Below, in pieces: positions 39,750-48,643 of a stretch of 48,643 nucleotides of DNA. The position numbers were made by a program, and so were the translations under genes. The DNA lies in NCBI GenBank assembly GCA_027315455.1, contig DAHUXZ010000018.1, forward strand, positions 1 to 48,643, given 5' to 3'. The notes beneath the pieces were generated by a model. The model was not told the origin of the DNA. It saw nothing but the letters and a program-made list of their open reading frames with translations, and did not search any database. The stretch's first letter is position 1, and each line of letters begins with the position of its first letter. Origin of the DNA: Thermoplasmata archaeon. GTDB lineage: Archaea; Thermoplasmatota; Thermoplasmata; Lutacidiplasmatales; UBA184.

Positions 39750-40070
39750 GGGGATCGGTACTAGGCCAGCGGGATGGCCGCCCGGAAGAAGGGTCCGTGG
39801 TTCCCGGGTGCTCCTCGGCCCCGTCGCCCCACCAGCGTCGACGGGTCACGGTAAGGCTGCTCCCGTCAGGACCTGACCCGGTGCCCGTGATGGATAACCG
39901 CTAGGGCGTCCCTCCGGACGCTCGTCGCGATGCCCGCGGCCCGATGGAACAGAGCGTCTACGGAGACGCCCGAGACGGACCCCTCCTCCGAACGTCGCTC
40001 CCGCCTGTCACCCCCGCTAAGGACGATTTCGGTGTAGAAGGGGACGCCCAACCCCCCGGTCTAGCCTAGC
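39750..40070 (-). ncRNA. ffs: signal recognition particle (7S/SRP) RNA
   Basis: The minus strand opens with GGCTAGACCGGGGGG and ...GTCCCC...CACCGAAATCG, the archaeal 5' domain (helices 3-4). The SRP54-binding helix 8 is at 39855-39877: GTCAGGTCC-TGAC-GGGAGCAGCC, with the usual AGCAG internal loop and a UGAC tetraloop in place of GGAA. Helix 6 with a GGAG tetraloop is at 39903-39923. Long pairing of 5' GGAGGAGGGGTCCGT with 3' ACGGACCCTTCTTCC forms helix 5. The RNA scaffolds SRP19 and SRP54 for protein targeting to the membrane. The 3' end is uncertain by about 40 bases. Confidence 0.93.
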
Positions 40071-40092
40071 GAGGCGTTGGACCCGTCGTGCG

Positions 40093-46611: not shown

Positions 46612-47655
46612 ATGGACCTCGACGCCCGGGTCGCGGCCGTCCTTCGCGGCACGACGGAGGTCCTGACCCCCGGGGAAGTGCGGGGCCTCCTGGAGACGAA
46701 GGACCGGCCGCGCGCCTACATCGGGTTCGAGCCGTCGGGACGGCTCACCGTGGGCCACCTCGTCTGCGCGCGAAAGATGATCGACCTGCAGGAGGCCGGC
46801 TTCGACCTGACGGTCTTCCTCGCCGACTGGCACGCCTGGATCAACGACAAGCTCGGCGGCTCGCTCGAGCGGATCCGCGCCGCGGGTCAGTACATGGAGG
46901 CCGGGTTCACCGCCCTGGGCGTCGACCCCGCACGGGCCCGCTACCGCTGGGCCCACGAGCTCACCGGCTCCTCCGACTACTGGGCCCGGGTCGTCCGCAT
47001 CGCGAAGGCGACGAGCCTCGCCCGCACGAAGCGCGCGATGACGGTCCTCGGGCGGGGGGAGGAGGAGGCGAACCTCGATACCGCGAAGCTGTTCTACCCG
47101 TCGATGCAGGCGGCGGACATCTTCGAGCTGCCCGTCGACCTCGCCTACGCCGGGATCGACCAGCGTCGCGCCCATGTCCTCGCCCGCGAGGTCGCCCACC
47201 GCTACGGCTGGCCGGTGCCCGTCGCGGTCCACACCCCGCTCATCTCCTCGCTCAAGGGCGGGGGCCGGATGGATCCCGCGACCCAGACGGTCGAGCGGAA
47301 GATGTCGAAGTCCGACCCGTCCTCCGCGATCACCCTCCCCGCGCCCGCGGAGGAGATCGCGGCCCGGGTCAAGGGGGCGTTCTGCCCGGCGAAGGAGGTC
47401 GACGGCAACCCGATCGTCGAGCTCGTGCGGTTCGTCCTTTTCCCCTGGGAGGGCCGCTTCGAGCTCGAACGCTCTCCGGCGCACGGCGGGCCCCTCGCCT
47501 TCGCATCGGAGGCGGAGTTCCTCGCCGCGTGGACGTCGGGGAGCGTCCACCCGGCCGACCTCAAGGCCTCCGTCGTCCCCGCGCTCGACCGCGTCCTCGC
47601 CCCGTCCCGCCGCTACTTCGCCGACCGGCCGGACGCCGTCCCGGCGGGGCTGTAG
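46612..47655 (+). CDS. tyrS: tyrosyl-tRNA synthetase
   Basis: A 347-residue class I synthetase of the archaeal/eukaryotic type. YIGFEPSGRLTVGHLV is the HIGH region with Tyr-binding residues, and KMSKSDPSS (230-238) is the KMSKS loop. It charges tRNA-Tyr in the cytosol. The short length, with no S4 domain, is normal for archaea. The L7Ae gene starts 101 bases on with its own promoter. Confidence 0.95.
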   Translation: MDLDARVAAVLRGTTEVLTPGEVRGLLETKDRPRAYIGFEPSGRLTVGHLVCARKMIDLQEAGFDLTVFLADWHAWINDKLGGSLERIRAAGQYMEAGFTALGVDPARARYRWAHELTGSSDYWARVVRIAKATSLARTKRAMTVLGRGEEEANLDTAKLFYPSMQAADIFELPVDLAYAGIDQRRAHVLAREVAHRYGWPVPVAVHTPLISSLKGGGRMDPATQTVERKMSKSDPSSAITLPAPAEEIAARVKGAFCPAKEVDGNPIVELVRFVLFPWEGRFELERSPAHGGPLAFASEAEFLAAWTSGSVHPADLKASVVPALDRVLAPSRRYFADRPDAVPAGL

Positions 47656-47672
47656 CGGACCGCGCCCGCAGG

Positions 47673-47680
47673 GTTAAATA
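47673..47680 (+). promoter_or_regulatory. TATA box of ribosomal protein cluster
   Basis: GTTAAATA lies far enough upstream (77 bases before ATG 47757) to give a leader of about 50 bases, unlike the leaderless neighbours. Confidence 0.65.
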
Positions 47681-47719
47681 CCCCCCTCCCTAGGCGGGCA
47701 GCACCCGTGAGCCGAGGAC

Positions 47720-47739
47720 CCCCTGGAACGAGGGGTTCC
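47720..47739 (+). promoter_or_regulatory. alternative leader hairpins of L7Ae mRNA
   Basis: GGAAC (47725-47729) can pair with GTTCC (47735-47739), the same GTTCC needed for the kink-loop. CCCCT (47720-47724) can also pair with AGGGG (47731-47735). Either would leave the Shine-Dalgarno GAGGAA free. Confidence 0.55.
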
Positions 47740-47754
47740 GCTGACGCGAGGAAC
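47735..47754 (+). promoter_or_regulatory. kink-loop over the L7Ae ribosome binding site
   Basis: GTTCC-GCT-GA-CGC-GA-GGAAC: a 5-bp stem, a three-base bulge ending in U, tandem G-A pairs and a short loop, which is the kink-turn/K-loop shape bound by L7Ae. The 3' arm contains GAGGAA, the likely ribosome binding site, two bases before ATG 47757. Binding of L7Ae would block its own translation. Confidence 0.68.
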
Positions 47755-47756
47755 AG

Positions 47757-48128
47757 ATGGCGCGACCGATCTACGTGCGTTTCGAGACCCCGAGCGACCT
47801 CGCCGACAAGGCCCTCCAGCTCGTCCAGATCGCGGCCGAGACCGGCAAGGTGCGGGTCGGGACCAACGAGGTCACGAAGTCGAGCGAGCGGGCCGAGGCC
47901 AAGCTCGTCGTGATGGCCGAGGACGTCGACCCGGTCGAGATCCTCGTGCACATCCCGATGCTCTGCGAGGAGAAGCGCATCCCGTACCTCTACGTCCCGA
48001 AGAAGCAGCGCCTCGGCCAGAGCGCGGGCGTCTCGAAGTCGGCGGCGAGCGTTGCCGTCGTCGAGGCCGGCGAGGCGAAGGGGCTGCTCGATGAGCTCGC
48101 CCAGGCGTTCTCGACGATCAAGAAGTAG
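47757..48128 (+). CDS. rpl7ae: ribosomal protein L7Ae
   Basis: A 123-residue L7Ae. It starts ARPIYVRFETPSDLADKAL, has the kink-turn-binding helix RVGTNEVTKSSERAEAKLV, and VDPVEILVHIP followed by the loop around IPYLYVPKKQRLGQSAG. It is a component of the large subunit, C/D and H/ACA particles and RNase P. It is followed by S28e and L24e, the usual archaeal order. Its own leader contains a K-loop. Confidence 0.97.
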   Translation: MARPIYVRFETPSDLADKALQLVQIAAETGKVRVGTNEVTKSSERAEAKLVVMAEDVDPVEILVHIPMLCEEKRIPYLYVPKKQRLGQSAGVSKSAASVAVVEAGEAKGLLDELAQAFSTIKK

Positions 48129-48152: not shown

Positions 48153-48365
48153 GTGGCGGAGGAGAAGGGCTCGCCGGCCGAGGTCGTCGAGCTGATCGGT
48201 CGCACGGGGATGGCGGGCGAGGCGACCCAGGTCAAGGTCCGCGTCCTCGCCGGACGCGACCGCGGCAAGATCATCACCCGCAACGTCGCCGGCCCGATCC
48301 GTCTCGGCGACGTCCTCATCCTGCGCGAGACGGCCCGCGAGGCCCGCAAGCTCTCGGTCCGGTAG
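48153..48365 (+). CDS. rps28e: ribosomal protein S28e
   Basis: A 70-residue protein of the small subunit. The OB-fold core [20 protein letters not shown] and C-terminal [14 protein letters not shown] are diagnostic. GTG 48153 starts it, 24 bases after L7Ae, with GAGGCGG as a likely Shine-Dalgarno site. Confidence 0.95.
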
Positions 48366-48382: not shown

Positions 48383-48643
48383 ATGGTCGTCAAGCACCAG
48401 TGCTCGTTCTGCGCCGGGGAGATCGAACCGGGGACCGGCTCGATGTTCGTCAAGCGCGACGGGACCGTCTTCCACTTCTGCTCGTCCTCCTGCCGCAAGC
48501 AGCAGCTCAAGCTCGGCCGCGCCGGCCACCGCCTGAAGTGGACCCGCGCCCACCTGCTCAAGCGCGCCTCGGAGGCCGCGAGCTCCTCCGGCGGCCGGGC
48601 CCGGTCGAGGACCGGCCCGACCCGCGCGGCGGCGCCATCGGCC
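48383..48643 (+). CDS. rpl24e: ribosomal protein L24e (3' end beyond window)
   Basis: The frame opens at ATG 48383 and is still open at the window edge (87 codons). KHQCSFCAGEIEPGTGSMFV and VFHFCSSSCRKQQLKLGR carry the four zinc cysteines of L24e. It belongs to the large subunit and is normally the third gene of the L7Ae-S28e-L24e operon. A Ser/Arg/Ala-rich tail after residue 60 is longer than usual. Confidence 0.93.
   Translation, partial: MVVKHQCSFCAGEIEPGTGSMFVKRDGTVFHFCSSSCRKQQLKLGRAGHRLKWTRAHLLKRASEAASSSGGRARSRTGPTRAAAPSA

Follow-up and report, generated by a model that had tools for sequence, protein, structure and literature searches.

The window, the whole 48,643-nucleotide (nt) stretch analyzed here, is contig C9, one of the 87 in a 1.98-Mb genome from a 94% complete bin, most likely that of a Lutacidiplasmatales-type archaeon (order name, PMC9287336). 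The best named matches are "Thermoplasmata archaeon" bins, from 97% identity down, and Candidatus Lutacidiplasma silvani matches at 88% (L028). Toward the 3' end of the window, three ribosomal protein genes follow one another on one strand, in the order l7ae, S28e, and L24e, at these positions:

ending at 47655, 5' of the l7ae leader: class I tRNA synthetase gene (W/Y type)
47674-47680, + strand: TATA-like box TTAAATA, putative l7ae promoter, from its sequence
47757-48128, + strand: l7ae (ribosomal protein eL8/L7Ae, 123 amino acids)
48153-48365, + strand: S28e gene
48383-48643, + strand: L24e gene, running off the contig

The gene 3' of the leader is l7ae, as an earlier sequence-only reading of this DNA had it. 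Its product scores 149 bits with TIGR03677 (cut-off, 134.6), matches PF01248 as well, and finds solved L7Ae chains with a best E value of 3.4e-44. Read by eye, it contains N37, E38, K41, and R45, whose spacing equals that of the Archaeoglobus fulgidus recognition residues N33, E34, K37, and R41 (PMC6298567). S28e (PF01200, E 1.7e-29) is probably on the same transcript, because the gap between the two genes is just 24 nt; L24e (PF01246, E 8.2e-17) comes next. The TATA-like box lies 27 to 31 nt 5' of the conserved element described below in 61 of 71 leaders, and we infer that l7ae transcription starts near the 5' end of that element. A TA step (47691-47692 in the window) recurs by eye in many relatives at a similar distance past the TATA box, about ten nt before the element, and is possibly a proximal promoter element. 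No 16S gene was found in this genome bin, from which the anti-Shine-Dalgarno sequence is therefore unreadable; of 11 matches to GGATCACCTCC, the four inspected by eye all lay in unrelated sequence. Elsewhere in the window, the sole gathering-level Rfam match is an archaeal SRP RNA gene (39759-40071, - strand; RF01857, 135.7 bits); in Sulfolobus, SRP RNA is one of the RNAs listed as bound by L7Ae (PMC5539422).

The l7ae leader holds a conserved element at 47704-47751, which can be written CC-CGU-GA-GCC-GA-hairpin-GCU-GA-CGC-GA-GG. Its upstream half, CCCGUGAGCCGAGG, falls mostly 5' of 47720-47754, the stretch that the sequence-only reading had singled out; the GCUGA and GCGAGG noted there are the other half. 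All parts are on the + strand:

47704-47705: outer kink-turn, 5' strand of the C-helix (CC), facing GG at 47750-47751
47706-47710: outer kink-turn, bulged strand (box C-like), 3-nt bulge CGU plus GA, nearly invariant in the family alignment A1
47711-47713: central (NC) helix, 5' strand GCC, facing 47745-47747
47714-47715: inner kink-turn, GA of the non-bulged strand, conserved to 90% or more in A1
47716-47739: capping hairpin, which is the inner C-helix (GGACCCC / GGGG-U-UCC, variable loop), with covariation
47740-47744: inner kink-turn, bulged strand, bulge GCU plus GA, on the strand opposite to the outer turn's
47745-47747: central (NC) helix, 3' strand CGC, from A1 and the variant cores
47748-47751: Shine-Dalgarno GAGG, serving as outer non-bulged GA and C-helix GG

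From the outside in, the pairing order is CC/GG, the CGU bulge, G.A and A.G, GCC/CGC, A.G and G.A, the GCU bulge, and the hairpin. Read in this way, the element looks like two back-to-back kink-turns joined through a common central helix and capped by a hairpin. Both turns have a 3-nt bulge followed by GA, with a facing GA. The sequence-only reading had a kink-loop hide the Shine-Dalgarno site, and as a sequence pattern the leader does carry kink-turn motifs around it. The three positions of the central helix are G-C, C-G, and C.C, i.e., two Watson-Crick pairs and a C.C. The capping hairpin pairs GGACCCC with GGGGUUCC, leaving one bulged U. In cores outside the genus g24, the inner bulge is GCU, GGU, or UUU, ending in U each time. 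No Rfam family matched positions 47600-47900 up to an E value of 1. Folding energy does not set the leader clearly apart from shuffled sequence: the predicted fold of 47702-47761 (60 nt) has -21.8 kcal/mol and a z score of -1.58, and three longer stretches give z scores of -0.38, -0.64, and -0.95.

The case for the element comes from comparison with relatives, for which we used the best 80 of 106 leaders found. Among these, the window's family group (L002-L072 and L074) carries, apart from a few variants, CCCGUGAGCCGAGG, a hairpin of variable length, and CCGCUGACGCGAGG, which lies a few nt 5' of the start codon, while L073 and L075-L081 deviate from this shared pattern. The Shine-Dalgarno sequence sits 3 to 8 nt before the start codon (47757 in the window) in the 71 leaders counted. 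Of 81 leaders, the window included, a simple search for the two-turn core picked out 69, and in 63 the core letters were the same. Across 71 leaders, a count that leaves out the divergent L038 and L054, core strand identity is 98.8%, compared with 90.3% for l7ae codon positions 1 and 2, 68.6% for position 3, and 40.4% for the DNA just upstream. The element is a real, strongly conserved, and probably regulatory part of the leader. A short upstream reading frame of 68 codons does begin with a GTG at 47707, and its translation might have accounted for the conservation. However, we reject this reading frame as the cause, and regard it as hardly credible, because element lengths run from 40 to 51 nt and take every residue modulo 3, with the core letters unchanged.

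We scored the double pattern in a family set of 76 leaders (the window, L002-L072, L074, L131, L136, and L137, some identical in the element). The inverted pattern was found in 66 of the 76, versus 0.36 expected when the Shine-Dalgarno sequence was kept and the upstream part shuffled; a single family leader was called tandem. At GAGG sites on both strands of 80 loci, the inverted pattern occurred at 62 of 85 sites in the leader zone and 40 of 4,698 elsewhere (tandem pattern, 5 of 85 and 35 of 4,698). The double pattern by itself is not rare in GC-rich DNA, yet it is strongly enriched in the leader zone.

Alignment A1 contains 70 of the 76 family leaders: five identical ones were dropped, as was L065, whose element equals that of L064. 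The 3' end of L038 is visibly out of register in it. In A1, 95.0% of cells pair in the kink-turn structure. The capping hairpin covaries, with four of the six counted pairs changed on both sides and 19 such cells, compared with 5.8 after shuffling. The outer C-helix CC/GG is paired in 99.3% of cells and hardly varies. Because the outer and central pairs are so constant, covariation within the family cannot test them. In this family just 2 bp make up the outer C-helix; a third pair occurs at the level of chance (18 of 74 leaders, 18.3 expected).

Nine variant cores retain 33 of 36 pairs of the kink-turn structure, and three g24 leaders have changed a G-C pair of the central helix to A-U. In g24, inner non-bulged GA is replaced by AA, AC, or AG, and three of the four leaders retain only one or two of the four sheared pairs that belong to the two turns. 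L128 has lost the inner turn but not the outer one, L073 and L129 are imperfect in both, and in L073 and L128 the inner bulge is by eye longer than 3 nt. L128 fits a scheme in which a single kink-turn, the outer, binds L7Ae and the inner strands are a stabilizing helix or a remnant. Against that scheme, GCU-GA and its facing GA are as strongly conserved as the outer strands in the family outside g24, and the final U of the bulge and the GA persist where other bulge letters change (L038, L054, L061, and L127).

The sequence-only reading had drawn a different structure from the same letters. In its scheme a kink-loop (K-loop), which would hide the Shine-Dalgarno site and bind L7Ae, paired GUUCC (47735-47739) with GGAAC (47750-47754) around GCUGACGCGA, and a competing hairpin, GGAAC-GAGGG-GUUCC, paired the same GUUCC with GGAAC at 47725-47729 and would free the site. 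Nearest-neighbor energies are -6.0 and -7.0 kcal/mol. In the window both pairings are perfect to the letter, but each has a predicted ensemble probability of 0.00 (47702-47770), and the two hairpins alone give z scores of -1.07 and -1.57 against shuffled sequence. That reading had also proposed looking for the kink-loop in close relatives, and there neither pairing is generally kept: all 5 pairs of the K-loop stem are present in 19 of 76 family leaders, and all 5 of the competing hairpin, with a loop of 3 to 9 nt, in four of 76. The upstream GGAAC falls in a loop that is variable among relatives, and it is the upstream CCCGUGAGCCGAGG that the conserved strands with GA and bulge fit. The stem drawn for the K-loop varies in relatives. 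In the K-loop of box C'/D' RNAs, a terminal loop replaces the C-helix and the NC helix is kept. The l7ae leader shares with such a K-loop the placement of GA motifs near a terminal loop, but the earlier drawing keeps a C-like stem, which is unconserved, and has no NC helix. The earlier reading has the gene and the class of mechanism right and the structure wrong, and we consider its pair of alternating folds very improbable.

Its more general idea of a two-state switch loses its drawn hairpin but could still operate through another pairing. The strands CGUGAGC and GCUGACG can form an alternative helix of six pairs around a G.G, nearly invariant at 98.8% of cells in 70 leaders and there as constant as the kink-turn core. 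RNAalifold picks this helix, probably because sheared G.A pairs go unscored. Its predicted energy of -16.9 kcal/mol is lower than the -10.3 kcal/mol of the Watson-Crick pairs of the kink-turn form, a comparison in which sheared G.A is likewise unrewarded. In L054, moreover, a compensatory change preserves the alternative helix while one central kink-turn pair is broken. The helix may be a free-state fold that, together with the hairpin, would leave the Shine-Dalgarno sequence largely outside until L7Ae pulls the RNA into the kink-turn form, a sequence of events compatible with the two-turn reading. Three observations weigh the other way. Part of the helix follows simply from UGA facing UGA; the nine variant cores keep only 39 of its 54 pairs, against 33 of 36 for the kink-turn structure; and GAGG is only partly free in the predicted ensemble (unpaired probabilities of 0.23, 0.97, 0.47, and 0.34). 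We consider a switch between these two folds less likely than not.

A wider view comes from 86 further leaders, all from Thermoplasmatota: 40 taken from the matches listed, mostly one to a few per family, 22 new loci, and sets of 16, four, one, and three; families lower in that list, such as f36, are left out. The outer turn with a bulge ending in U was found in 70 of the 86, versus 16.4 expected. The scan had no match in leaders of f25, f32, f38-f43, f48, and f55, in three of four from f19, or in one of two from f34, but f25 does have the outer turn by eye and is too short for the scan used. In 50 of the 59 parsed leaders of this set, the third position of the outer C-helix forms a standard pair, compared with 42.4 in shuffles (none of 2,000 as high), with relatedness uncontrolled. 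The very short f25 leaders (L180, L181, L186, and L227) read GCC-UAU-GA-UAG-GA-GGC, which by eye is an outer kink-turn on its own, its NC helix replaced by a 3-nt loop and the Shine-Dalgarno sequence inside.

In 41 of these 86 leaders, versus 0.65 expected by shuffling, two kink-turns lie in tandem on the same strand, in the layout CC-NNN-GA-spacer-NNN-GA-stem-loop-GA-spacer-GA-GG. Seven were called inverted, most of which were also called tandem. The tandem form occurs in 23 of 51 family labels and was not found in the other 28. A second search, with U fixed at both bulge ends and 2-nt spacers, returned 40 distinct leaders from 24 labels, and the middle bulge base, left free in the search, was a purine in both bulges of all 40. 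This distribution bears in two ways on whether only one turn functions. The outer turn is the more widely shared, f15, f25, and f35 keep it alone by eye, and published accounts give each leader one kink-turn (PMC5539422; PMC6298567). On the other hand, nearly half of the additional leaders have a second turn in tandem, and together with the conservation of the inner strands this makes a single functional turn improbable in our judgment. Family f2, in the window's own order, has the tandem form, and so the inner turn seems, from these sequences, to have switched strand in the window's family.

We put at about three in four the probability that the l7ae leader, at 47704-47751, is an autoregulatory element of two kink-turns, with the Shine-Dalgarno sequence in the outer turn, through which L7Ae binding represses translation. 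The outer turn would be formed by the Shine-Dalgarno GAGG, as non-bulged strand and C-helix, facing the upstream CC-CGU-GA; in the inner turn, capped by a GC-rich hairpin, the 3-nt bulge would lie on the other strand (GCU-GA); and a central helix of about three positions would be common to both. L7Ae in excess of its rRNA and sRNA sites would bind the leader and fix the outer turn, burying the Shine-Dalgarno sequence. Translation of l7ae, and perhaps also of S28e and L24e, would then be repressed. The inner turn would be a second, or the first, L7Ae binding site.

Published sequence rules suggest that the two turns may behave differently. A Watson-Crick 3b:3n pair means poor or no folding in Mg2+; otherwise, C at 3b or G at 3n permits it (PMC8191799). 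With -1b:-1n C:G and 3b:3n C:C, the inner turn would be expected to fold when only Mg2+ is present, and the outer turn, whose 3b:3n is G:C, to depend on L7Ae. Some variants differ at these letters: in L003 the inner 3b:3n is a Watson-Crick pair. The inner turn resembles the bacterial intergenic Actinomyces-1 kink-turn, which folds in Mg2+ alone and has the same -1b:-1n C:G and 3b:3n C:C, but 4b:4n is C:G there and G:C here (PMC8191799). It is tempting to go further and see Thermoplasmatota leaders as two-site L7Ae sensors, with, in the window's family, an inner landing pad folded by Mg2+ alone, an outer turn closed by L7Ae, and a graded or cooperative OFF response, and with selection across the phylum that held two sites, and kept the Shine-Dalgarno turn, through the change of the inner turn from tandem to back-to-back. 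This we offer tentatively, at somewhat less than even odds.

Autoregulation of L7Ae through a kink-turn in its own leader, to which the sequence-only reading had appealed, is indeed published for Sulfolobus acidocaldarius and has support in other archaea (Daume et al. 2017, PMC5539422; Huang et al. 2019, PMC6298567). The first study also inspected 121 archaeal leaders. The second depicts the leaders of six species, each as a stem-loop with a single turn and a GAU bulge, and concludes that probably none of the six folds stably in ions alone. The window's leader is likewise upstream of l7ae, has bulged and non-bulged strands with the Shine-Dalgarno sequence inside or next to a turn, and would be expected to act as a translational OFF switch as those do. 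It differs in having two turns rather than one, the inner of them inverted, and in bulging CGU (outer) and GCU (inner) instead of GAU. The departure from a single GAU turn lowers the claim of identical architecture, but not that of the same working mode. The A. fulgidus leader is reported to be unstructured without protein, whereas the free RNA here is predicted to be structured, if not clearly more so than shuffled sequence.

Paired kink-turns have precedents outside l7ae leaders. As far as its title goes, the euryarchaeal RNase P RNA double kink-turn module (Lai et al. 2017) also places two kink-turns in one archaeal RNA; that RNA and its function are different, the window's element being in an l7ae leader without an Rfam match. 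An engineered head-to-head duplex (PMC5058347) has opposite-strand loops joined via their NC helices, as proposed here, but it is artificial and has ten base pairs between the loops, where the leader has seven positions (two GA, three central, and two GA). Among the papers listed on double or tandem kink-turns and on l7ae leaders, which included PMC6565675, no title or opening of an abstract outside the subscription papers described two turns in an l7ae leader, and the main text of a paper on archaeal ribosomal leaders (PMC7247131) does not mention L7Ae. L7Ae leader autoregulation is thus already known, and relative to the one-turn leaders described, a two-turn l7ae leader would be new. If the phylum uses two turns, the stoichiometry and sharpness of feedback would differ from those of one-turn leaders, and the leader, about 48 nt long, would be a naturally occurring double kink-turn for structural work, in which the rules above predict different Mg2+ behavior for the inner and outer turns. 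The change from tandem to inverted would show an RNA regulator rebuilding half of its fold with the protein and ribosome sites kept.

A covariance model built from A1 found one strong site in the window's own genome, the l7ae leader (68 bits). The next-best matches (21 and 19 bits), considered as further copies, lie inside long open reading frames and were rejected; three weaker matches were inspected as DNA only. A Nop-domain gene (contig C20, L254) was considered as another carrier of such a leader, but its start codon is 4 nt past the upstream stop codon, leaving no room for the element. In 250 genomes of the class, the model had no match in the four g24 genomes, in family genomes G030, G033, G074, G113, and G114, where l7ae was also not found, or, among those listed or counted, in genomes of other families. 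It did match in 37 genomes, 36 from the window's family and one marginal (G422, E 0.0097). In seven of the best 80 relatives (L005, L026, L031, L032, L043, L047, and L048) a contig edge lies about 110 to 300 nt upstream of l7ae, and in genomes G013 and G019 the element is present on two contigs, which may point to branching in the assembly or to DNA that varies immediately 5' of the leader.
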